The notes under the pieces are model-generated. The model ran no database searches and was not told where the DNA came from. It was given only the letters and a program-made list of their open reading frames with translations. Source: a virus. Taken from it: a stretch of DNA of 64,000 nucleotides. The stretch's first letter is position 1. Each line of letters opens with the position of its first letter. Positions 3,102 to 55,528 of the stretch are shown piece after piece. The stretch spans positions 1-64,000 of the IMG/VR virus record IMGVR_UViG_3300023257_000007. The stretch is one strand, 5' to 3'. A program made the translations under genes and the position numbers.

Positions 3102-3570
3102 TATTATAGTAGCAATTGGTCAGAACAATGAAATTGGTTGTAATAATAAATTGCCTTGGAATATACCAGAAGATTTAAAAAGATTCAAAGAATTAACATT
3201 AAATCATCCTGTTATAATGGGAAGAAAAACCTTTGAAAGTATTGGCAAACCATTATCAAACAGATTAAATATTGTTATTAGTAATAATGATAATTTCTCA
3301 AGTAAAGGTATAATTAAAATGAATTCTCTTACTAATGCTTTAAAATATATACATCAAGAGGAAGTTTTTATAATTGGTGGTGCTCAAATATATGAACAAT
3401 CTATATATTTAGCTGATAAACTATATATAACAAGAATATTTGATACATTTGAAGCTGATACATATTTTCCAAAAATAGATTTAAAATACTGGAAACTAGA
3501 ACAAATTGAAAGCAACACTAATAAATCTACGTTATCTTACACATTTGAAAATTACATAAGAAAATATTAA
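3088..3570 (+). CDS. folA: Dihydrofolate reductase
   Basis: This 160-residue protein has the full DHFR pattern: an N-terminal strand INIIVAIGQNNEIG, the substrate loop LPWNIPEDLKRFKELT with the catalytic acidic residue, the cofactor motif VIMGRKTFESIG, and VFIIGGAQIYEQ before the C-terminal sheet. DHFR makes tetrahydrofolate for thymidylate synthesis; T4 carries one (frd). The start overlaps the end of gp46 by 14 bases, so the two are probably co-transcribed. Confidence 0.95.
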   Translation: MRRINIIVAIGQNNEIGCNNKLPWNIPEDLKRFKELTLNHPVIMGRKTFESIGKPLSNRLNIVISNNDNFSSKGIIKMNSLTNALKYIHQEEVFIIGGAQIYEQSIYLADKLYITRIFDTFEADTYFPKIDLKYWKLEQIESNTNKSTLSYTFENYIRKY

Positions 3571-10104: not shown

Positions 10105-11751
10105 ATGTTATTAACAAAGAATATTAAAATTAAAATAAATAATAGGTATATAAAATATTATCAAAATCTTGGATATCAGGTAAAAGGCGGTCAAGAATGT
10201 GAAATAAAAATAGAAGATTTATCAAAAAAAAGCCACGCTTTTGTTGATGTTAAATGTGATATATGTCAAGAAGAAAAAACAATTAAATATTATAATTATA
10301 CTGAAAATATACTAAATCAGGGTTTTTACACTTGTAAAAAATGTAAACATCATAAGACAAAAATCACAAATCTAGAGAAATATGGTGTAGAATGTACATT
10401 ACAATCTGATGATGTTTTAGAAAAGATAAAAAATAAAAACATAGAAAAATTTGGCACAGACCATTATTCAAAAACAAATGAATTTAAAGAAAAAATAAAA
10501 GAGACAAATCTAGAAAAATATGGTGTTGAAAGTAATATGCAATCAATCGAATTTAAGGAAAAATCTATATTATTTAATCTGAAAAGTTACGGTGTTGATC
10601 ATTATTCAAAGACTAATGAATTTAAAGAAAAAGTAAAAAAAACAAATTTAGAAAAATATGGTGTTGATCATTATTCAAAAACTGATGAATTCAAGGAGAA
10701 GTTGTCTAAAAACCATTTTTTAAAACTTAAAAAAGAAAACAACAATCTTAAAGAGATAAATGGTGATGAATATGTGATATATTGTGATAAATGTGATAAA
10801 GATTATACTATTCATAAATGGTTATATAAAAATAGAAAAAAGAAATATAAAACTAATACTTGTTTATATTGTAATCCTATAAATTCTTCTAAATCTGGAA
10901 TGGAATTAAAATTATTAGAATTTATAAAAGATAATTATAATGAAAAAATTGTTTATGGTAATAGAAAAATTATACCACCTAAAGAATTAGATATTTATTT
11001 ACCAAATTTAAAATTGGCATTTGAGTTTAATGGTGTATATTGGCACAACGAATTAAACAAACATAACAAATATCATTTAGAAAAAACAGAAAAATGTCTA
11101 GAAAAAGGAATACAATTAATTCATGTTTTTGAAGATGATTGGATTTATAAACAAGATATAGTAAAATCTAGAATTTTGAATTTAATTGGAAAATCTAAAA
11201 AAATATTTGCTCGAAAATGTGAAATTAAATTAGTCAATGATAATAAAGTTATTAGAAATTTTCTAGATGAAAATCATTTACAAGGGTTTGTAGGGAGCAA
11301 AATAAAATTGGGTTTGTATTATAATGATGAATTAGTAAGTTTAATGACTTTTGGAAATTTGAGAAAACCTTTAAATCAGTCAAAAAAGGATGGGTCATTT
11401 GAATTATTAAGATTTTGTAATAAATTGAGCATTTATGTTATTGGTGGTGCTTCAAAATTATTTAATTATTTCTTAAAAAACTATGAAATTTGTGAAATAA
11501 TAAGTTATGCGGATAGAAGTTGGAGTAATGGAAATTTATATGAAAAACTTGGTTTTGAATTTATACATAAAACACAACCTAACTATTATTATATAATAGG
11601 CAATCTTAGAAAACATAGATTTAATTTCAGGAAAGATAAATTAATTAAAGAAGGTTTTGATTCAAATAAAACCGAACATGAAATAATGTTAGAAAGGGAA
11701 ATATATCGAATATATGATAGCGGTAGTTTAAAATATAGTTATTTAATATAA
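10105..11751 (+). CDS. Free-standing homing-type endonuclease, copy 2
   Basis: 548 residues, same architecture as the gene at 7642. Zinc pair CDIC/CKKC; six regular repeats of the type LEKYGVDHYSKTxEFKEK between about 90 and 205; nuclease core KELDIYLPNLKLAFEFNGVYWHN plus LIHVFEDDW; conserved C-terminal module (IFARKCEI, NHLQGFVGSK, SLMTFG, LLRFCNKLS, GGASKLF, YADRSWSNG, RIYDSG). The near-identical repeats are recent at DNA level and likely vary in number between strains. The 3' end overlaps the convergent LRR gene by nine bases. Confidence 0.87.
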   Translation: MLLTKNIKIKINNRYIKYYQNLGYQVKGGQECEIKIEDLSKKSHAFVDVKCDICQEEKTIKYYNYTENILNQGFYTCKKCKHHKTKITNLEKYGVECTLQSDDVLEKIKNKNIEKFGTDHYSKTNEFKEKIKETNLEKYGVESNMQSIEFKEKSILFNLKSYGVDHYSKTNEFKEKVKKTNLEKYGVDHYSKTDEFKEKLSKNHFLKLKKENNNLKEINGDEYVIYCDKCDKDYTIHKWLYKNRKKKYKTNTCLYCNPINSSKSGMELKLLEFIKDNYNEKIVYGNRKIIPPKELDIYLPNLKLAFEFNGVYWHNELNKHNKYHLEKTEKCLEKGIQLIHVFEDDWIYKQDIVKSRILNLIGKSKKIFARKCEIKLVNDNKVIRNFLDENHLQGFVGSKIKLGLYYNDELVSLMTFGNLRKPLNQSKKDGSFELLRFCNKLSIYVIGGASKLFNYFLKNYEICEIISYADRSWSNGNLYEKLGFEFIHKTQPNYYYIIGNLRKHRFNFRKDKLIKEGFDSNKTEHEIMLEREIYRIYDSGSLKYSYLI

Positions 11752-14686: not shown

Positions 14687-14696
14687 TATATATTAA
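14687..14696 (-). promoter_or_regulatory. TTAATATATA promoter-like element inside the end of the upstream gene
   Basis: An exact copy on the minus strand overlapping the stop of endonuclease copy 3, 22 bases before the start of the virion gene at 14664. It would let the three-gene virion operon be read without the endonuclease. Confidence 0.45.
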
Positions 14697-16504
14697 TTCT
14701 TAAAAATGTATTTATAATTACCACTATTATATATTCTATAAATACCTCTTTCTATCATTATTTGATGTTCACTTTTATCTAAATCAAAACCTTCTTTAAC
14801 CAACACGTCTTTTCTATATCCAAACCTATATTTTCTCACACCATCTACTACATAATAATAATTTGGTTTAGAAATATGAGATAATTCAAAACCTAAATTT
14901 TCATATAATTTGCCATTTGAATGTGATCTATCTGCATAACTTATTATTTTTTTAAAAAAATAATTTTTAGTAAAATGTTTAAACAATTTTGAAGCACCAC
15001 CAATAACATTAGTATTTAACTTATTACAAAATCTTATAAGTTCAAATTCACCTTCTACACTAGAAGAATTTTGAGACTTTCTTTTTTTACCAAAAGTCAT
15101 TAAAGAAACTAACTCATTTTCATAATAAAGACCTAGTTTAATACTAGAACCAACAAAACCTTGTAAATGATTATCATCTAGAAATTTTCTTATCAATTTA
15201 TTATCTTCAATAACTTTAATTTCACATTTTCTTGCATAAATTCTATTTGGTGTTTTACCTATTTTGTTTAATATTATGGATTTAACTATGTCTTGTTTAT
15301 ACAACCAATCATCTTCCCAAATATGTGTTAGCTGAACACCTTTTTTAAAACAATTATCTGTTTTATTTAAATGATAATTATTATCTTTATTTAATTCGTT
15401 ATGCCAATACAAACCATTAAATTCAAAAGCTAATTTCAAATTTGGTAAATAAATATCTAATTCTAATGGTTTAATAACATCTCTATCTGATGTTTCAATG
15501 ACACCAGTATAATTTTCTTCAATAAAACTTAATAATTGTATTTCTAATCCTGATGTGTGTTGATTAATTGGGTTGCAAATAGTACACAATTCAGTTTTAC
15601 ATTTAACTCTATTTGAAAACAAGGATGAATTAATAATATAATCATGTCCTTTATCACATAATATTGTATATTCTTTATTATCAAAATCAATATTCAAAAA
15701 ATTTAAATAACTATAATTACTTAAAAGATATTTTTTAGTTCTTTTTCTATTATTCTCTTTAATATTTTTTATAACTTTTTCTGTTTGAAAATAATTTTCA
15801 ACACCATATCTTTCTAAGATTGTAGTTTTTCTTTTTTCTTTTAATTCATTAGAATATGATGGATTTTCAACACCATAATTTTCCATTAATGATTTTATTG
15901 ATTTCTCTCTAATTTCTTCTGATTGTTGAGGATACTCTACACCATACTTTTCTAAATTTGTTTTTTTAATTTTATCTTTTATTTCTTCTGATTCAAACGG
16001 ATTTTCAACACCATATTTTTCTAGATTTGTTTTGGATATTTTATCACGTATCTCTTTATTAGATAGAGAAAATTCAACACCATACTTTTCTAGATTTGTT
16101 TGTTTTTGCTTTCTTTTTACACACTCATTTTGAGTAAAATGTTCGACACCATATTTTTCCAAACTTGTTTTTTTAACTCTATCAACATATTCCTCAGTCT
16201 GTGTATAATATTCACTGCCATATTTTTCAAATGTTGTCTTTTTAACTTTTTCTTGAGCACACTTAGAACTACAAGCATAAAACCCACCATTATTAATATT
16301 TTTAACATATTTTTGATACATTAAATCCTTTTCATTATTACAAAAATCACATTTTACTTTTATTTTTACATGACTACCATCAGATAAATATTTAGGATGT
16401 ATATTTAAAATATCTCCCAATTGTACATCTTTCGAATATTCTTCTTTTAGTTTACTTAAATTTCTTTTTGTTACTTTAATTAATGTTTTTTCTGTTAAAA
16501 TCAT
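14693..16504 (-). CDS. Free-standing homing-type endonuclease, copy 3 (longest)
   Basis: 603 residues, the longest of the four copies. Zinc pair CDFC/CSSKC; eight or nine repeats of the type LEKYGVENPFESEEIKDKIKKTN; nuclease core LELDIYLPNLKLAFEFNGLYWHN and LTHIWEDDW; C-terminal module as in the other copies (IYARKCEI, NHLQGFVGSS, SLMTFGKKRK, LIRFCNKLN, GGASKLF, YADRSHSNG, RIYNSG). All key residues look intact, so it is likely active. It lies between the virion operon and the divergent amidoligase gene. Confidence 0.87.
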   Translation of the reverse strand: MILTEKTLIKVTKRNLSKLKEEYSKDVQLGDILNIHPKYLSDGSHVKIKVKCDFCNNEKDLMYQKYVKNINNGGFYACSSKCAQEKVKKTTFEKYGSEYYTQTEEYVDRVKKTSLEKYGVEHFTQNECVKRKQKQTNLEKYGVEFSLSNKEIRDKISKTNLEKYGVENPFESEEIKDKIKKTNLEKYGVEYPQQSEEIREKSIKSLMENYGVENPSYSNELKEKRKTTILERYGVENYFQTEKVIKNIKENNRKRTKKYLLSNYSYLNFLNIDFDNKEYTILCDKGHDYIINSSLFSNRVKCKTELCTICNPINQHTSGLEIQLLSFIEENYTGVIETSDRDVIKPLELDIYLPNLKLAFEFNGLYWHNELNKDNNYHLNKTDNCFKKGVQLTHIWEDDWLYKQDIVKSIILNKIGKTPNRIYARKCEIKVIEDNKLIRKFLDDNHLQGFVGSSIKLGLYYENELVSLMTFGKKRKSQNSSSVEGEFELIRFCNKLNTNVIGGASKLFKHFTKNYFFKKIISYADRSHSNGKLYENLGFELSHISKPNYYYVVDGVRKYRFGYRKDVLVKEGFDLDKSEHQIMIERGIYRIYNSGNYKYIFKN

Positions 16505-25730: not shown

Positions 25731-26060
25731 ATGAAATTCTTTTACCTAATATTACTATTTTTACTATCCCTCACAATTTCCGCACAAAAAATTTACAAAG
25801 TTGATTATAAATATGATGCAGATATAAAAGTATATGTTGCTGATTATAAATATGATGCAGATTTGATTGTTTATATCGTAGATTATAAATATGATGCAAA
25901 TAAAGATGGTTTATGGTATTTCGTAAATTATAAATATGATGCAGATAAGACAATTTATTTTGTAGATTATAAATACGATGCAAATTTAATAATTTACTTC
26001 TGTGATTATAAGTATGATGTAGGTTGGAAAAATAAATCTAAAATACATTTATTAAGATAA
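25731..26060 (+). CDS. Secreted DUF6150-like repeat protein
   Basis: 109 residues with a textbook Bacteroidetes signal peptide (MKFFYLILLFLLSLTISAQ) and then six short beta repeats of the type VDYKYDADxxVYV. This pattern is known from secreted Bacteroidetes proteins (I recall DUF6150). In a phage it looks like a gene taken from the host, exported to the periplasm or surface of infected cells. Its role is unknown. Confidence 0.8.
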   Translation: MKFFYLILLFLLSLTISAQKIYKVDYKYDADIKVYVADYKYDADLIVYIVDYKYDANKDGLWYFVNYKYDADKTIYFVDYKYDANLIIYFCDYKYDVGWKNKSKIHLLR

Positions 26061-26342: not shown

Positions 26343-26644
26343 AAAAAATTTTTCAAAAGATTAAAATTTTTAAAAATTTTATTTCATTAATATTATCTTT
26401 AACGGTAATACTTATTTTCCTAAGAATAAAGAATTTTCAACTTATTGAATTTTTTAGTATAATTAGTATAATCTTTTAATTTTAGAAAAAAGTGACTTTT
26501 TAAGTCAAATATATAATTTTCACACTTTTATAAATTTTTAAAATTTTTAAACTTTTTAAAATTTTGAAAGTACAAGAAAATAGATTACGAAAAAATAATA
26601 TTTTTTTAAAGATTTTTCGAAATCAAAACGTTCTTTAAAATATT
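26343..26644. other. AT-rich noncoding spacer before the giant RNA
   Basis: About 300 bases of A/T runs (repeated AAATTTTT and TTTTAAAA blocks), no reading frame worth calling. It may hold the promoter of the RNA that follows or a replication start; I see no decisive motif. Confidence 0.4.
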
Positions 26645-27890
26645 GTAAAATATAGTCTGTGCTTGGGCAGACGTTCATCTTCGGATGGAGCAGATAAAAC
26701 ATCGTAAGGTGTCGAAAGAGAGGAAGGTCACTTATTCTCGCCAATAGTCTTCGGATTATGGTCAATCTAAGCAAGTCTCATTTTTGTCTTGACCAACAAG
26801 ACAGCCTCAATAGAAAGGGGATAAGATGAAACAACGTGAGTAACGATCTTTGGTAAGAATAAGATGGCTCAATTGCCCGCAAGGGGAACAAAAGTTATCA
26901 AATATAGAATGGGGACATTCCAATATCGTTTAATCCACTCATTAAGTGTTCGTTGATAGATAAGAGATAGAATAGTAGTTCGAATGTGGAAAGTTAGAGC
27001 ATTATTCAGTTTCAAAGGTGTTGAAAGATGTCTTAACAAACGGCACAGTAAGTCCTCCGGGCTGAAACGCATACGAAGGGTCGTATTTTGTAAGGTGAAA
27101 CTTATGAATCGGTGGACAGGCACTTTGTGGTGATATCATTTTTTATTAGCTCACAATGGTAGAGCAGTAGTATTCTAACTAAAGGTAGATGGTTCAATTC
27201 CATCATAAAAAAAGCAAAGTCCCTGTCCGTCTGTTAAGTAAAGGTGCTTAAAACTTTACACTTCGGTGAATAAAGTGGATTCAAAGCTCGCAAGGTAGAG
27301 AATCTTTGATACAGTAGCCTCAACTTTTAACCCTAGCAGGTTATTAACGCCACGATAGTGGTGAGTGTACGCAAAATATCGAGTAACTTAATAGTACTAG
27401 TGATGTAACCACATAAAAAGTTACAGTACAGCTGGTGTACATAGTTGCCTTTCGAGGGATTATGTGGACAATTCAGGAACGAAGAATAGCAACTCTTTGA
27501 TAATCTGAAGAAAGCAAAACATATAATAAACTGTGTGTTTTACCAGTATGACAGTTTTTAGTCTCAAAATTGTTTCTCTATCAAGATAAAAACCTTGACG
27601 TGGTGATAGAGCTTTAAACTAATATTTATCAAATGTGAAAAAAGTAGTAGAAATTAAAAGACGCAACACGCAGCCCGTTCTCTGCGCTACTTCACAAAAA
27701 TGTGAACGATAAAAATCTTCACATTTAAATACACCAAGAATAACACCATCACTGTAGCCCTAAAGGAGTGATGTTGTCGCATAAAAACGATTAGTGTTAG
27801 TGTGTGTTTGAGAAGACGACGGGGGATTTCACAAAAGTAACATGAATCAAGTAGTGTGAAATAAGAAATTCCTCCAAGTTTTCTCGGAAA
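26645..27890 (+). ncRNA. Giant structured noncoding RNA (GOLLD/ROOL-like candidate)
   Basis: About 1.25 kb with clearly higher G+C than its surroundings and no plausible gene in any frame. Hairpins with stable loops are frequent: CATC-TTCG-GATG at 26676-26687, an ATAGTC/GATTAT stem with TTCG at 26750-26753, GTCTTG/CAAGAC at 26786-26802, a GCAA tetraloop at 26879-26882, CATCACT/AGTGATG at 27747-27773, and ATTTCACA/TGTGAAAT at 27826-27862. A tRNA-like element is nested in it, enclosed by a 14-bp stem (27114-27127 with 27215-27228, one mismatch). Size, phage origin, position beside tRNAs and the inner tRNA recall GOLLD RNAs; I cannot align it to that family by eye. Strand is inferred from the tRNA-like part. 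Confidence 0.7.
27140..27212 (+). tRNA. tRNA-Arg(UCU)-like element nested in the giant RNA
   Basis: The acceptor stem (TTTTTAT/ATAAAAA), D-stem (GCTC/GAGC) and T-stem (GATGG/CCATC, loop TTCAATT) are perfect. By canonical spacing the anticodon is TCT. The anticodon stem pairs poorly at canonical spacing and best as TAGT/ACTA with a six-base loop. It may be a degenerate tRNA or a tRNA mimic within the RNA. Confidence 0.5.
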
Positions 27891-27943
27891 ATTTTTTTAT
27901 GCAAGAAATAATTTGTATATTGTCAAAAATAGAGAATAAATAT

Positions 27944-28151: not shown

Positions 28152-28225
28152 GGTGGTTATAGTGTTAGTGGTAGCACGGCAGGTTGTGGTTCTGTTAGGA
28201 TGGATTCAAATTCCATTAATCACCC
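28152..28225 (+). tRNA. tRNA-His (anticodon GUG)
   Basis: Acceptor GGTGGTT/AATCACC, D-stem AGTG/GCAC, anticodon loop TTGTGGT, T-arm TGGAT-TCAAATT-CCATT. The discriminator is C, as expected for His. No encoded CCA. Confidence 0.9.
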
Positions 28226-28237
28226 CAAATTTAACAC

Positions 28238-28308
28238 AGGTCTATAGTGTAACGGTAGCATAAGTGATTCCAAACCACTTGGTCCGGGTTCAAATCCTGG
28301 TAGGCCTG
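28238..28308 (+). tRNA. tRNA-Trp (anticodon CCA)
   Basis: Acceptor AGGTCTA/TAGGCCT, anticodon loop TTCCAAA, T-arm CCGGG-TTCAAAT-CCTGG, discriminator G as in Trp tRNAs. The innermost anticodon-stem pair is A-C. Confidence 0.85.
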
Positions 28309-28377
28309 CGAGAAGTTTAAATATGGTTAAATGAAGGATGGTTAAAAGGTAGAAAAATGAAATATTAATACAAATTT

Positions 28378-28450
28378 GGAACCGTGGTGTAGGTGGTCTG
28401 CACGATACTCTGAAGAAGTATAGGTACCCGTTCAACTCGGGTCGGTTCCA
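28378..28450 (+). tRNA. tRNA-Phe (anticodon GAA)
   Basis: Acceptor GGAACCG/CGGTTCC, anticodon stem ATACT/AGTAT with loop CTGAAGA, T-arm ACCCG-TTCAACT-CGGGT, discriminator A. All stems are well paired. Confidence 0.92.
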
Positions 28451-28467
28451 CTTTAAACTTTTAAATT

Positions 28468-29671: not shown

Positions 29672-29674
29672 ATT

Positions 29675-29747
29675 GGCCATTAGCTCAGTAGGTTTAGAGC
29701 ATCTGCCTTTTAAGCAGAGAGTCCAGGGTTCGATCCCCTGATGGCCA
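29675..29747 (+). tRNA. tRNA-Lys (anticodon UUU)
   Basis: Acceptor GGCCATT/GATGGCC, anticodon arm TCTGC-CTTTTAA-GCAGA, T-arm CAGGG-TTCGATC-CCCTG. Complete cloverleaf. Confidence 0.93.
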
Positions 29748-29753
29748 ACCAAT

Positions 29754-29826
29754 GGATCTGTAGCTCAGTTGGTAGAGCTTCTGCCTTTTAAGCAGAAAGT
29801 CCAGGGTTCGAGTCCGACTAGGTCCA
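29754..29826 (+). tRNA. tRNA-Lys (anticodon UUU), chimeric with broken T-stem
   Basis: Acceptor GGATCTG/TAGGTCC and the anticodon arm are fine, but the T-arm reads CAGGG-TTCGAGT-CCGAC with three of five pairs lost. The block from the anticodon arm to the T-loop copies the preceding tRNA-Lys, as if by gene conversion. Possibly nonfunctional. Confidence 0.65.
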
Positions 29827-29830
29827 CTAA

Positions 29831-29945
29831 GGCTTATAACAAATAGGTTGTATTTATAGAGCATTTGTCGGGTTACCGCATGTCACTAAAATGTATATTT
29901 TAAGAGTTACTAGAGATATATGAGGTTCGAATCCTTAATAAGCCA
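29831..29945 (+). other. Oversized or degenerate tRNA-like element
   Basis: A perfect acceptor pair GGCTTAT/ATAAGCC and a good T-arm (TGAGG-TTCGAAT-CCTTA) enclose 83 bases that do not fold into normal D and anticodon arms. Total 115 bases. It may be a decayed tRNA, one with an insertion, or a mimic. Confidence 0.5.
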
Positions 29946-29949
29946 CTAT

Positions 29950-30033
29950 GGAAAGCGTCCGGTTGGACGAGGGGCTACTCTTGAAAAGTAGTAATGGGTT
30001 ACACCATTAGGGGTTCGAATCCCTTGCTTTCCG
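29950..30033 (+). tRNA. tRNA-Ser (anticodon UGA)
   Basis: Acceptor GGAAAGC/GCTTTCC, anticodon arm CTACT-CTTGAAA-AGTAG, long variable arm TAATGG...CCATTA typical of Ser, discriminator G. Confidence 0.93.
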
Positions 30034-30037
30034 CTAT

Positions 30038-30125
30038 GGAAGAGTACCCAAGTTGGTGAAGGGGCTGGTTTGCTAAACCAGTAGGTCTGAAATACGGCGC
30101 GTGGGTTCGAGCCCCACTTCTTCCG
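30038..30125 (+). tRNA. tRNA-Ser (anticodon GCU)
   Basis: Acceptor GGAAGAG/TTCTTCC, anticodon arm CTGGT-TTGCTAA-ACCAG, long variable arm, T-arm GTGGG-TTCGAGC-CCCAC, discriminator G. Confidence 0.93.
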
Positions 30126-30173
30126 CAATTAGGTTTGAAACTCAGTTGGTGACCTACTAAGAAAGATATTTCA

Positions 30174-31568: not shown

Positions 31569-31615
31569 AGAAATTATTTTATTTTCTTAAAAATTTTTGT
31601 ATATTATAACAAATT

Positions 31616-31838
31616 AATCTAATCGACTATACGCTGATTTTATAAAAAATTAGAGGAAAGTCGGGACAATTTTGCTTAAGGCAGGAGACTTTGGTCGTTC
31701 GTACTGCCGAGGTTGCAACTCAAACAGATCTAGGAGGTGAGCAATTCTATAATGATCGGGTTAGAGGCACTCTTCGGAGAAGTGTAAACACTTAGATAAA
31801 TGTATAGATAAAACAAAATCCCGCTTATGGACTAGGTT
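31616..31838 (+). ncRNA. rnpB: RNase P RNA (phage-encoded, minimal)
   Basis: The universally conserved 5' core GAGGAAAGTCGGGAC (31652 on) and the 3' core TAGATAAATG...ACAAAATCCCGCTTATGGACT are both present in the right order and distance, which is diagnostic. P1 forms between AATCTAATC at the 5' end and GGACTAGGTT at the 3' end. At about 223 bases it is much shorter than the 350-400 of bacterial forms, so peripheral helices are lost. RNase P cleaves tRNA 5' leaders; the protein subunit would come from the host. A promoter-like TTTTTGTATATTATAAC precedes it. Confidence 0.85.
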
Positions 31839-31865
31839 AATTTTAACTTTTAAATTATTTAAATT

Positions 31866-32510: not shown

Positions 32511-33818
32511 ATGAGAAATATACAAAAATTATCAGAAAAAGAATTAATAGTACATTTAAAATCTATCTATAATAAACAGATAGATATTTATGATAAATTT
32601 GAAAAAACAGGTGAAATTGAACCAATTATTACCGATTTTGATGATCAAGATGCATATAAATATTTTATGCAATATGCAATCTTTAAAACTCACCCAAACG
32701 CAATAGTAAAATTTAAATTTTTTAACCGTGGAAAACATAAATTTCCAGTCGGTTCAGATTATCATATTAAAAAACAAATAGAATCTATGAAAAATCTTAG
32801 ATTCACTCCTGAAATAGAAAGATCATTTAGAAAAAAATTTTCAAATATGAAAGGTGAATCTTATTTTGATGAATCTTTTTATGGTTTTTTAAGAAGTTAT
32901 AGATACGATCCATCTGAAGTTAAAGTAACTCAAACAGGAGAAGATATCGAAATAGAAATAACTGGTTCTTGGTTAAAAACAATTTATTGGGAAACACAAA
33001 TAATGCCGATTTTAACAGAAACTTGGTATATGTTAACTGATCAATATAAAAATATTCATAATTTTGATCATCTATATGATACACACAGAGACAAATATCG
33101 AAGTTTTATAACAGCCGAATCTAATATTGCAGAATTTGGTTTAAGAAGAAGATATTCAAAACTAATACAAGAATTTATCAATATACATTTTATGTGGGAA
33201 TCACCAGCTAGATATATTGGTACGTCTAATTGTATGTTCGCTAGAAAATTTAATGTTAAAGCCATTGGAACACAAGCTCATGAATGGATAATGTTTCATG
33301 CCGCAAAATATGGACCAGAACTAGCAAATAAGATATCTTTAGAAAATTGGGTTAAAGTTTACAGAGGAGAATTAGGTATTGCGTTATCTGATACTTATGG
33401 TACAGACAATTTCTTAAAATCATTTGATACTTTACATAGTAAATTATTTGATGGTGTTAGATGGGATTCTGGTGATTTTAAATTATTTACTGATAAAATA
33501 ATTGGACACTATAAATCATATGGAATTAATCCTAAATCCAAAACAATTGTCTATTCTGATGGTATAAATTCATTTTTAAAAATACGAGATATTATAAGAT
33601 ATGCAAGTGATAAAATTAAATGCACGTTAGGAATTGGTACTTATTTAACAAATGATATTGGTGTACCAACTATGAATATTGTTATTAAAATGACAGAAGC
33701 TAAACCTGAAAAAATGGATTGGAGATATTGTATAAAGACATCTGATTCATCTGGTAAATATACTTATACTGACAAAAAAACATTAAACAGATACTTAGAA
33801 GATTTGAATATAAATTAA
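32511..33818 (+). CDS. pncB: Nicotinate phosphoribosyltransferase
   Basis: 435 residues with the PncB pattern: AEFGLRRRYS, YIGTSNCMFARKFN, IGTQAHEWIMFH, ALSDTYGTDNF, DGVRWDSGDF, KTIVYSDGIN, LGIGTYLTND and MNIVIKM. These match bacterial PncB rather than NAMPT. It joins nicotinate to PRPP to give nicotinate mononucleotide, the first step of the Preiss-Handler route to NAD. With a Nudix gene and nadE downstream and a shared operator it forms an NAD module, probably to restore NAD during infection. Confidence 0.93.
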   Translation: MRNIQKLSEKELIVHLKSIYNKQIDIYDKFEKTGEIEPIITDFDDQDAYKYFMQYAIFKTHPNAIVKFKFFNRGKHKFPVGSDYHIKKQIESMKNLRFTPEIERSFRKKFSNMKGESYFDESFYGFLRSYRYDPSEVKVTQTGEDIEIEITGSWLKTIYWETQIMPILTETWYMLTDQYKNIHNFDHLYDTHRDKYRSFITAESNIAEFGLRRRYSKLIQEFINIHFMWESPARYIGTSNCMFARKFNVKAIGTQAHEWIMFHAAKYGPELANKISLENWVKVYRGELGIALSDTYGTDNFLKSFDTLHSKLFDGVRWDSGDFKLFTDKIIGHYKSYGINPKSKTIVYSDGINSFLKIRDIIRYASDKIKCTLGIGTYLTNDIGVPTMNIVIKMTEAKPEKMDWRYCIKTSDSSGKYTYTDKKTLNRYLEDLNIN

Positions 33819-33863
33819 ACTAGATAAGAATATAATAATAAAAATAAAAAATAATATAATATT

Positions 33864-34109
33864 ATGGTAAAAAAACAATACATGGGTAAAACAGTGAAAG
33901 AACATTTCGGTTATAAAATAAAACACATGATTCAATTCAGAATGTCAAGAGGACCCAAAGGAAAAGAAATATCTCATCAAGAACCTAGCGGATATTTTGG
34001 TGTATATGCAGGCAAAAATCTATTGTGTGGAAATAAAGAATTCAAAAAAGTAAAAGATGCAGAACAATTTTTATTCAATTATATTAAAAATAAGAAATAT
34101 GAAATTTAA
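33864..34109 (+). CDS. Small basic protein in the NAD operon, unknown
   Basis: 81 residues, basic, with SGYFGVYAGKNLLCGNKEF near the middle. No known family. It overlaps the Nudix gene start by 11 bases, so it belongs to the operon. Confidence 0.6.
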   Translation: MVKKQYMGKTVKEHFGYKIKHMIQFRMSRGPKGKEISHQEPSGYFGVYAGKNLLCGNKEFKKVKDAEQFLFNYIKNKKYEI

Positions 34110-42105: not shown

Positions 42106-43161
42106 TTAAAATCCCCAATCATCAAAGTTTTCAAACTCATCTTTATTTTTTTGAATTGTCTGTTGTATTGAACCACTAAATAAACTATTTAATACCGATA
42201 ATCTTTTATTAATATCTGGTAAACCTACTGGTTCTAAAAACCTATTAGCAATTGCCAAAAATGTTTTTTCAAATTGAGTATCATAATCTATCAATACTCT
42301 TTCTTTTTCAGTTATTTCATACGGATGAAAACTTCTCATATAAGCAAACCTCTCTCCAAGAGTATGGTTACAAAAATACCATTTAACTCGACCACCTTTT
42401 AACAAATCATATTTAGTTTTAAACTCGCTATTTTTATTTAAAAGAAAATTATGTAAAGCGGCGGCTTTAACTGAAAAATGAGCACCTTTAACACAATTAA
42501 CACCAATTTGATCATCAACTACTTTATCTCTATAATTTGATAAAGAAGTCGTCATACTAATATCTTCAATATCAGAGGCTTTAAATTGATTTTTAAGATC
42601 TTTCATAATTTTTAAAACCTCACGTATATTTAACGTATCAGGATTTTTAAATAAATAATTAATAAATTCCCAAACACCACCTTTCTGCTTTTGACCTCTA
42701 ACAAATATTGGTGTTGAAGACCTTACAATATCTACACCTTTTGGAAAAAAATGTTCCATATCTTCATAAAAAATACCATCTTCCCAAACCACATTATTAA
42801 TATAATGTTTCTTTTCAAGATGCATGGCAGATTTATTAACAGTTTCTAATTCAAAATCATGAATATTTTTAACACCATACTTTTTAGCATATTGGTCTAA
42901 ATATTTAACAAATGTGTCTTTTACATACAATCTATCAAGGGTTAATATAAATTCAAGAGGATCACCTTCATAATCACAAGAGTCCATTATTGGTTGAAAC
43001 GACAAATATAAACTATTATGAACTAATAAATTATTAGCAATAAAGGTGTGAGTTTCATCATCAACTTCTATATCATAAACATATTCTTCTTCTCCAAAAT
43101 TACCTACACATTCAATTTCTGAAATTTCAACCAATTCATAATTATAACATATATTTTCCAT
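42106..43161 (-). CDS. gp43: Intein C-half fused to the C-terminal domain of DNA polymerase gp43
   Basis: Residues 1-49 are a short intein C-fragment with block F (YVYDIEVDDETHTFIANN) and block G ending LLVHN; splicing is after Asn49 with Ser50 as +1. The extein SLYLSFQPIMD follows motif C: joined to YGDTD from the upstream gene it rebuilds YGDTDSLYLSF. The rest is the thumb, with a C-terminal tail NKDEFENFDDWGF that looks like a sliding-clamp-binding peptide. The start overlaps the endonuclease gene upstream. Confidence 0.92.
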   Translation of the reverse strand: MENICYNYELVEISEIECVGNFGEEEYVYDIEVDDETHTFIANNLLVHNSLYLSFQPIMDSCDYEGDPLEFILTLDRLYVKDTFVKYLDQYAKKYGVKNIHDFELETVNKSAMHLEKKHYINNVVWEDGIFYEDMEHFFPKGVDIVRSSTPIFVRGQKQKGGVWEFINYLFKNPDTLNIREVLKIMKDLKNQFKASDIEDISMTTSLSNYRDKVVDDQIGVNCVKGAHFSVKAAALHNFLLNKNSEFKTKYDLLKGGRVKWYFCNHTLGERFAYMRSFHPYEITEKERVLIDYDTQFEKTFLAIANRFLEPVGLPDINKRLSVLNSLFSGSIQQTIQKNKDEFENFDDWGF

Positions 43162-45341: not shown

Positions 45342-46943
45342 TTAAAAGTTTAATGAATATTTTATATTACCACTGTTATATATTCTATAAATACCTCTTT
45401 CTAACATTATTTCGTGTTCACTTTTATTAGGATCATAACCTTCTCTAACTAAAACATCTTTTCTAAAATTATACCTATATAATCGTTTTAAATTTTTACC
45501 ATCAAAATAATGATAATTCGGTTTTGTGTTATGAACGAATTTAAATTCCAATTTTTCATATAGATTTCCTTTACTCCAGCTTCTATCAGCATAAGTAATT
45601 ATTTCACCCGGATTATAATTTCTGATAAAATATTTAAATAATTTTGATGCACCACCAACAACATTAATATTTAATTTGTTACAAAACCTTAACAATTCAT
45701 ACTCTCCTTCTATACTTTTAGACCCCATTAATTTTCTTTTTTTACCAAAGGTCATTAGAGATACTAATTCATCTTCATAATAAAGACCTATTTTAACAAA
45801 AGAACCAACAAAACCTTGAAGATGATTATCATTTAAAAAATTTCTAATCAATTTATTATCTATTATCTCTTTAATTATAGTTTTTCTAGCATATATTTTA
45901 TCAGACTTTCCAATCATATTTAATATTCTAGACTTGACAATTTCTTTTTGGTTAAACCATTCATCTTCCCAAATATGTATTAATTGAACACCTTTTTTTA
46001 AACAATTGTTTGTTTTATTTAAATGATAATCCTTATCCTTATAAAGTTCTGAATGCCAATACAAACCATTAAATTCAAAAGCTAGATTTAAATCTGGTAA
46101 ATAAATATCTAATTCTTTTCCATCCAAGATCTCTTTATCACTTGTTATTATTTCATAATTATAGTTTTCTTTAATAAAATTCACGATTTCTAATTCTTTA
46201 CCTGAAATCTTATAATCTAATGTATTACAAACTGTGCATAATATTGTTTTTTGTATTTTATATCTTTGATATAAATTTTTGCTATTAATATTAAAATAAT
46301 GATCTTTACCACAATCACATTTAACATCTATCGTTCGATCAGTATTTAAAATATAATCTGTTATATTATATTCCGATAATTTAAATAATATATCTTTTTC
46401 CCACCTTTTATATGTTAACAAATAATATGATTCTGTTTGTGTATACCATTCTTTTCCATATTTTTCAAGATTAGTTTTCTTTATTTTCTCTCTAATTTCA
46501 TATGAAGAAAGTATCTCTTCCACGCCATATTTTTCAAGATTTGTTTTTTTAATTTTTTCTTTGACATCTTTATCTAATAATGTACAAGTAACGCCATATT
46601 TCTTGAGGTTTGTTTGTTTTGTTTTATCTTTTATTTCTTTTATGTGTTGTGGATTTTCAACGCCATATTTTTCTAACATTGTATTTTTTCTTTTAATAGA
46701 AGAACATTTTTTACAACTATAAAAACCTTGTCTTTTTTTATTTTCTAAATATTTATGATATCTTAGTTGTTTTTCATCTGAACATATCTCACAAACAGCA
46801 ATTACTTTAACATGTGAATTTTGTGGCAAATCATTAACATCAATGTCCAATGTTTCACCATTATTACAAACATAATTTTTAGATCTATAATATGTTACAT
46901 TACGATATGTTATATTAACATCAATTCTACTATTTTTAATCAT
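45342..46943 (-). CDS. Free-standing homing-type endonuclease, copy 4
   Basis: 533 residues, same architecture as the copies at 7642, 10105 and 14693: CEIC/CKKC, four to five LEKYGVE-type repeats, nuclease core ELDIYLPDLNLAFEFNGLYWHS and LIHIWEDEW, and the full C-terminal module. It sits just upstream of the polymerase fragment, the kind of place where a homing gene could have caused the polymerase split. Confidence 0.87.
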   Translation of the reverse strand: MIKNSRIDVNITYRNVTYYRSKNYVCNNGETLDIDVNDLPQNSHVKVIAVCEICSDEKQLRYHKYLENKKRQGFYSCKKCSSIKRKNTMLEKYGVENPQHIKEIKDKTKQTNLKKYGVTCTLLDKDVKEKIKKTNLEKYGVEEILSSYEIREKIKKTNLEKYGKEWYTQTESYYLLTYKRWEKDILFKLSEYNITDYILNTDRTIDVKCDCGKDHYFNINSKNLYQRYKIQKTILCTVCNTLDYKISGKELEIVNFIKENYNYEIITSDKEILDGKELDIYLPDLNLAFEFNGLYWHSELYKDKDYHLNKTNNCLKKGVQLIHIWEDEWFNQKEIVKSRILNMIGKSDKIYARKTIIKEIIDNKLIRNFLNDNHLQGFVGSFVKIGLYYEDELVSLMTFGKKRKLMGSKSIEGEYELLRFCNKLNINVVGGASKLFKYFIRNYNPGEIITYADRSWSKGNLYEKLEFKFVHNTKPNYHYFDGKNLKRLYRYNFRKDVLVREGYDPNKSEHEIMLERGIYRIYNSGNIKYSLNF

Positions 46944-55153: not shown

Positions 55154-55225
55154 GGTCCCGTAGCTCAGTGGAAGAGCAGAAGCTTCTAACCCTTTGTGTC
55201 GCTGGTTCAAATCCAGCCGGGACCG
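55154..55225 (+). tRNA. tRNA with anticodon CUA (putative amber suppressor)
   Basis: Acceptor GGTCCCG/CGGGACC perfect, D-stem GCTC/GAGC, T-arm GCTGG-TTCAAAT-CCAGC perfect, five-base variable loop. With the canonical single base 26 the anticodon arm is GAAGC-TTCTAAC-CCTTT: four pairs plus a C-C mismatch, anticodon CTA, which reads UAG. Shifting one base to give UCU (Arg) loses base 26 and most pairs, though the body resembles an Arg tRNA. Discriminator G. The gene for Pth2, 1.7 kb upstream, carries an in-frame TAG. Confidence 0.75.
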
Positions 55226-55528
55226 CTATAACCTCATTATATTGGTTGTTCTATTATACTTAATAGTTTCTTTTTGTCTATTTACCCAATTAATTAATTC
55301 AGACTTAATTTCTTTATATCTTTCTTCTGTCATTTTATCATCATAAAACTCACCTTGTTCAATTTGATGATCATCAGATAACCAAAAATCGGAAACTAAC
55401 TCATTTAATGTCTCCTCTAATTGTCTAAAATTAGTTTCAACACCATTCAAATAATATTTCTTTTGATTTACAGCCCATTCTTCATCTTCTTGAGTTACAT
55501 TTTCATTATATTTCTTTAAATGTCTCAT
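55226..55528 (-). CDS. Leader-bearing small protein, unknown
   Basis: 100 residues, leader MRHLKKYNENVTQ, acidic helical body. Ends with TAG directly against the tRNA; reading on would enter the tRNA antisense, so TAG is a true stop here. Last gene of a seven-gene minus-strand run of leader proteins. Confidence 0.7.
   Translation of the reverse strand: MRHLKKYNENVTQEDEEWAVNQKKYYLNGVETNFRQLEETLNELVSDFWLSDDHQIEQGEFYDDKMTEERYKEIKSELINWVNRQKETIKYNRTTNIMRL

Follow-up and report, generated by a model that had tools for sequence, protein, structure and literature searches.

Giant RNAs of phages

The env-38 GOLLD RNA has been resolved by cryo-EM as a 14-mer cage with its linker inside, and phage-encoded tRNAs are sometimes present in the linkers of this RNA family (PMC12286853). 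ROOL RNA is likewise a large, cage-forming phage RNA that occurs near tRNA islands (PMC12286853). In a Mycobacterium GOLLD, the internal tRNA was scored as a pseudo-tRNA and had no detectable expression (PMC6582537).

The RNA described here lies within the first 64 kb (hereafter the window, the whole stretch of DNA that was analysed) of a 348,222-base virus record, a 348-kb phage with 24% G+C. A noncoding, structured block of raised G+C had been proposed at 26645–27890 from the sequence alone, and base composition, an ORF check and folding all bear this out. The G+C content at 26501–27500 is 0.32–0.39, compared with about 0.24 around it, and no convincing ORF was found in the block. In a shuffle test, z was negative for the fold of the 5′ domain, the 3′ domain (z = −2.43) and a 3′ extension (Table 1). 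The large virus record, a terminase gene and the neighbouring tRNAs place the RNA in a phage and near a tRNA island, as is the case for GOLLD RNAs in phages or prophages. Consensus promoters were no commoner in the region than in shuffled sequence. Elsewhere in the window, three homing/HNH endonuclease genes (10105–11751, 14693–16504 and 45342–46943) are related to one another and fall in a single PHROG family, and a short ORF of DYKYDA-kind repeats, read from the DNA, is found at 25731–26060.

Table 1. Features of the GOLLD locus and of related linkers. Positions are those of the window unless a contig is named.
Feature	Position	Strand	Evidence
GOLLD 5′ domain	26650–27072	+	nhmmer homology; fold z = −2.50
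GOLLD 3′ domain with linker	27073–27541	+	RF02032, 93.9 bits, E 8.7e-25, model 1–416
Enclosing stem, 5′ strand, GGACAGGcACTTTG	27114–27127	+	Direct reading
tRNA-like module in GOLLD linker	27140–27212	+	RF00005, 45.4 bits; ARAGORN 27139–27213; MFE cloverleaf
Enclosing stem, 3′ strand, CAAAGTcCCTGTCC	27215–27228	+	Direct reading
Candidate structured 3′ extension of GOLLD	27542–27895	+	Fold z = −3.77; 0/100 shuffles as stable
60-nt pseudoknot-like motif in 3′ extension	27576–27634	+	blastn to crAss-like phages
Free tRNAs His, Trp and Phe beside GOLLD	28153–28451	+	ARAGORN, RF00005
More tRNAs of the neighbouring island	29674–30126		ARAGORN
Divergent, minimal RNase P RNA	31615–31843	+	RF00010, 59.1 bits, E 2.2e-18; P4 strands
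Permuted linker tRNAs	L081:4740–4866; L113; L465 linker just before 7716		

A divergent GOLLD RNA

The original prediction left two options, a divergent member of a known family or a new class of giant RNA, and proposed an Infernal search with the GOLLD, ROOL, OLE and HEARO models as a check. The GOLLD model (RF02032) aligns across its whole length to the 3′ domain at E 8.7e-25, while the Rfam models for ROOL, OLE and HEARO were not among the matches with E up to 10; in this the window RNA differs from ROOL. Because the score of 93.9 bits lies under the 150-bit gathering score, which is a curation threshold and not a structural feature, a default scan gives no GOLLD report: cmscan at the gathering threshold misses the match, and E-value mode reports it. 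GOLLD members have been collected at E < 1e-5 (PMC12286853), a threshold that the window RNA passes, and it is therefore treated as a divergent member.

The region upstream of the covariance-model match is also related to the family. When 26640–27113 was compared with the upstream parts of other GOLLDs using nhmmer, it aligned over approximately 26695–27100 (E 1.1e-8, 1.3e-8, 3.7e-8, 9.6e-8 and others), and the 5′ domain also matches that of a related phage (L097; E 2.6e-5). Given the RF02032 match at the 3′ side and the homology at the 5′ side, both GOLLD domains are present. The predicted 5′ end of the RNA was placed by its first hairpin (26655–26672). Our own sequence profile of GOLLD 3′ domains matches the window at E 4.1e-24, although the window is among the sources of the profile, so this match is not independent. 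The terminal hairpin of the family, GGTGTAATCTCA.CCT (GGUGUAAUCUCA.CCU in RNA), is not recognisable in the window; the last ~30 model positions are poorly matched, and the profile match ends early too, at profile position 287 of 317. The missing hairpin is a local loss at one end, as the rest of the model aligns.

A new giant-RNA class unrelated to GOLLD could account for a score under the gathering threshold, the absent terminal hairpin and a 3′ extension of 350 nt that has no relatives. It is nevertheless very improbable and strongly disfavoured, given a full-length covariance-model match at E 8.7e-25, a homologous 5′ domain, and a tRNA and enclosing stem that occupy the same slot as in other GOLLDs. 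Judged by sequence comparison, the RNA at 26645–27890 is thus a divergent GOLLD and not a new class, the first option of the original prediction having held and the second having fallen away. It resembles the family (RF02032) in its whole-model 3′ domain, homologous 5′ domain, variable linker, phage host, adjacent tRNA island and tRNA-like unit within the linker. It differs in its score below gathering, its unrecognised terminal hairpin, an extra structured 3′ extension, a full A-U acceptor, a 6-nt anticodon loop and a longer, two-part enclosing stem.

The tRNA-like module of the window

Direct reading confirms the predicted tRNA-like unit with perfect acceptor, D and T stems, as well as the 14-bp stem with one mismatch that was said to surround it. 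The enclosing strands GGACAGGcACTTTG and CAAAGTcCCTGTCC form 13 pairs and one C·C mismatch over 14 positions, and the module consists of an acceptor (TTTTTAT/ATAAAAA), a D arm (GCTC/GAGC) and a T arm (GATGG/CCATC). Stem and tRNA together (27114–27228) fold with z = −4.18, none of 200 shuffles being as stable, and the module has the top score in the cloverleaf fit among 121 linkers. Like a functional tRNA, it has a seven-pair acceptor, in which all seven pairs form and all are A-U. Its anticodon arm (GTAGT-ATTCTA-ACTAA), in which a functional tRNA would have five pairs and a 7-nt loop, has four pairs, one G·A and a 6-nt loop. The CCA of a functional tRNA is not encoded after the module, which is followed by AAGC, although CCA could be added by an enzyme of the host. 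In combining a complete A-U acceptor with a defective anticodon arm, the window copy stands apart from its class, and since its acceptor is complete, the argument from shortened acceptors made below rests, for this phage, on its relatives.

ARAGORN calls the anticodon of the module CTA, which is not to be read as an amber suppressor because the anticodon arm is distorted. The linker tRNA as the amber suppressor of a recoded phage was considered and rejected: the stops in 59 ORFs are TAA (46), TGA (7) and TAG (6), and TAG serves this phage as a normal, if infrequent, stop. Another tRNA that has a CTA anticodon, and is well formed, is found at 55154–55226 (60.9 bits; RF00005, ARAGORN), though TAG is a stop here.

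Conservation of the module in related GOLLDs

DNA patterns from conserved parts of GOLLD gave several hundred IMG/VR stretches among the matches listed, and two broad patterns returned mostly non-GOLLD DNA among the matches listed. A profile search of the fetched stretches yielded at least 156 GOLLD loci, at least 121 of them distinct and with enough upstream sequence. A first cloverleaf fit, which required six of seven acceptor pairs, misplaced or missed many modules, and relaxing the outer acceptor pairs resolved this. The cloverleaf then beat 99% of shuffled linkers in 73 of the 121 distinct GOLLDs, a count that is not a prevalence because the fetch patterns favour linkers bearing tRNAs. 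Some GOLLDs are without any tRNA, and the family can therefore dispense with the module. Among related phages, one of 330 kb has a GOLLD (243 bits) with no linker tRNA whereas the GOLLD of another (L009/L097; 172.7 bits) has a tRNA at the position corresponding to that in the window; the near-identical G001, with 0 differences over 1260 bases, consequently gives no covariation. An unannotated GOLLD (L702:2467–2935, near 33533–34001 of the phage record; 186.6 bits) is found in the cultured, 469-kb Sinorhizobium phage Phosso (PV764938.1), whose linker tRNA (54.1 bits) is arranged as in other tRNA-bearing GOLLDs. A contig of a Crocinitomicaceae MAG (PAVO01000007.1; L358) carries two GOLLD copies separated by approximately 970 bases, and the linker tRNA of one differs from that of the other.

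Covariation among homologues had been set beforehand as the test of the predicted structure, and an alignment of 50 linkers (A1) shows it strongly in the linker module. The inner acceptor, D and T arms served to select the rows, which favours them; the anticodon arm and outer acceptor played no part in the choice, so the contrast between these two is not a product of row selection. Paired cells make up 98.9% of the enclosing stem and 98.8% of the anticodon stem, and, in the parts favoured by selection, 97.4% of the inner four acceptor pairs, 98.0% of the D stem and 97.6% of the T stem. The outer three acceptor pairs are only 48% paired, a figure that gaps alongside lower somewhat; the gap-free cloverleaf fit gives 51, 33 and 66% at acceptor positions 1 to 3. 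Two-sided changes number 342 over the whole structure, with kinship uncorrected; shuffling gives 99 ± 10, and slid controls give no more than 64. Such changes occur at five of the seven pairs of the enclosing stem, and all five pairs of the anticodon stem vary on both sides. Of the 73 linkers with a tRNA, 71 have the homologous 7-bp enclosing stem fully paired, and the stem occurs in 20 different sequences. When a flanking motif is used to anchor it, the stem is fully paired in 68 of 72, compared with 20% when strands are mated randomly.

Linker modules were compared with free tRNAs, that is, all other tRNAs in the same DNA, under one criterion that ignored the outer acceptor pairs and CCA. 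A full seven-pair acceptor is present in 6/64 linker modules and in 618/685 free tRNAs (Fisher p 4e-44), and an encoded CCA in 0/64 and 634/685, respectively. An anticodon loop of 6 or 8 nt is found more often in linkers than in free tRNAs (8/64 vs. 20/685; p 0.0014). U36 and A37 predominate in linker modules, which have Asn, Lys and Arg anticodons, and the excess of U36 (47/56 vs. 247/665 in free tRNAs; p 8e-12) may reflect shared ancestry. The pattern, as read from these sequences, is that of a conserved tRNA shape with a shortened acceptor, and appears to be neither that of a working tRNA gene nor that of general decay. tRNAs in GOLLD linkers were known before; their systematic loss of the acceptor end is new as far as the searched literature shows.

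Circularly permuted tRNAs in GOLLD linkers

In the linkers of L081 (with L113 of the same type) and L465, the usual enclosing stem holds a circularly permuted tRNA (Table 1). It starts with the T arm and the 3′ half of the acceptor, goes on to CCA and a short spacer, and ends with the 5′ half of the acceptor, the D arm and the anticodon arm. Once the L081 and L465 modules are rearranged into the standard order, ARAGORN recognises a tRNA in each, with a perfect acceptor and with CCA. A strict permuted-cloverleaf detector, positive in 0/24,200 shuffled linkers, recovers L465, while L081 apparently falls one base outside its D-loop limit. After normal 5′ and 3′ processing, a GOLLD of this type would become a two-piece RNA with a chargeable end. 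The processed L081 and L465 RNAs would resemble two-piece (permuted) tmRNA in consisting of two pieces joined by the acceptor stem, and differ from it in having no tag reading frame; the comparison applies to these relatives, not to the window. In five viral contigs (L591, L593, L609, L636 and L639), a T arm is followed by CCCCACCA, a short spacer, GGGGAGT and a D arm, an order suggestive of permuted tRNA genes that are not part of a GOLLD.

RNase P RNA of the phage

The phage had been said to encode RNase P RNA, and a whole-record search with RF00010 finds it, with both P4 strands visible (GAGGAAAGTCGGGA and ATCCCGCTTATG; Table 1). Its score is under the 100-bit cut-off, and cmscan did not list it. 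A second GOLLD phage (L330's record; L709 1501–1734) has an RNase P RNA of 62.7 bits in which different P4 letters still pair, and the RNAs of both phages are divergent and approximately 230 nt long. Matches were found in only 3 of the 34 GOLLD phage records tested (the window phage, the near-identical G001 and L330's record), hence RNase P RNA is not a general partner of GOLLD. The additional suggestion that RNase P could process the inner tRNA finds no support: the linker class is without outer acceptor pairs and CCA, and the window module, despite its own complete acceptor, has an abnormal anticodon arm.

Possible function of the linker module

We favour, with moderate confidence, the reading that the linker module of this divergent GOLLD is a conserved, tethered and non-chargeable tRNA mimic. 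By analogy with another, solved GOLLD, the two domains (approximately 26650–27541) would presumably fold and self-assemble into an RNA cage, and the variable linker would sit in its lumen, where the covarying stem would hold the tRNA-shaped module. Selection appears to keep the module as a tRNA fold with a shortened acceptor and without CCA in this group of GOLLDs, which makes both its aminoacylation and its excision improbable. It would then stay attached, and the cage would display many copies of it on the inside. The module would likely serve to bind a factor by which the elbow and anticodon arm of tRNAs are recognised; both the factor and the benefit are conjecture, and one guess is that it acts as a decoy or sponge, taking up a host nuclease that targets tRNAs or a tRNA enzyme. 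In plant RNA viruses, tRNA-like structures lie at the 3′ end and are often aminoacylated. The GOLLD module is like these in being a tRNA-shaped module within a larger viral RNA, but it is internal and, in most members, has no usable acceptor. Another parallel is the Mycobacterium aubagnense GOLLD, which also has a defective tRNA inside, undetected there as a free tRNA (PMC6582537); that is a single case, whereas the covarying module described here is common to ~70 phage GOLLDs.

The module could instead be a real tRNA gene within GOLLD, freed by RNase P (of the host or the phage) and 3′ processing, which would leave a nicked, two-piece GOLLD. The window copy, with all 7 bp of its acceptor formed and neither the D nor the T arm damaged, is consistent with this, as are the RNase P RNA of the phage and the phage-encoded tRNAs in some GOLLD linkers (PMC12286853). 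It seems unlikely, however, since a full acceptor is present in only 6/64 linker tRNAs and CCA in none, unlike in the free tRNAs of the same contigs; the anticodon arm of the window copy is broken, the mycobacterial pseudo-tRNA has no detectable expression (PMC6582537), and RNase P RNA is matched in few GOLLD phage records, two of them near-identical. Slightly less probable still is a history in which the linker simply tolerates insertions, tRNA genes from the neighbouring island having fallen into it and now decaying neutrally. Many GOLLDs do adjoin tRNA islands, some linkers hold only remnants, and the irregular anticodon loops are commoner than in free tRNAs. Neutral decay would not be expected to leave the anticodon stem 98.8% paired, with two-sided changes at all five pairs of an arm not selected on, or the inner acceptor equally kept and the outer lost; the loss is confined to a specific part.

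A more restricted version of the tethered-mimic reading would make the module a bait for anticodon nucleases such as PrrC or the AriB of PARIS, its anticodons for A-starting codons being kept for that purpose. tRNA-Lys is a target of cleavage by AriB, and phage tRNAs that counteract this nuclease are known (PMC11455837); the predominance of U36 and A37, with Asn, Lys and Arg anticodons, would fit. This narrower form is a minor possibility, as the anticodon skew may be due to shared ancestry and the anticodon arm of the window is abnormal. Returning to the tethered mimic as such, we tentatively propose that a conserved working part of phage GOLLD cages is a tRNA mimic, attached covalently and neither chargeable nor releasable, and that in a few phages its place is taken by a permuted, CCA-bearing tRNA, which after processing would yield a two-piece, aminoacylatable cage RNA. 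That RNA-only GOLLD cages hold tRNAs is a published idea, and a linker tRNA conserved in shape yet probably non-chargeable sharpens the question to what binds a tRNA elbow and anticodon inside the cage. It could be tested in the cultured Sinorhizobium phage Phosso, which has the same arrangement.

The 3′ extension and a motif shared with crAss-like phages

Downstream of the 3′ domain, the candidate extension spans 354 nt. A search of 27515–27900 against the flanks of other GOLLDs with nhmmer gave no match, and an Rfam search of the extension gave none beyond chance. In blastn, the whole region had only a short crAssphage match among named phages. The motif concerned matches MH552500.1 at 42353–42409 (78.9%, E 8e-4) and phage phi14:2 (KC821624.1) at 3507–3553 (E 0.1), both in noncoding gaps. 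By eye, its stem and loop-tail pairs change together across the three sequences, and a conserved CCTTGACGWGG is common to the window phage and the two crAss-like phages (L701:2500–2560; L703:3389–3445), in which the motif lies shortly upstream of a possible ORF start.
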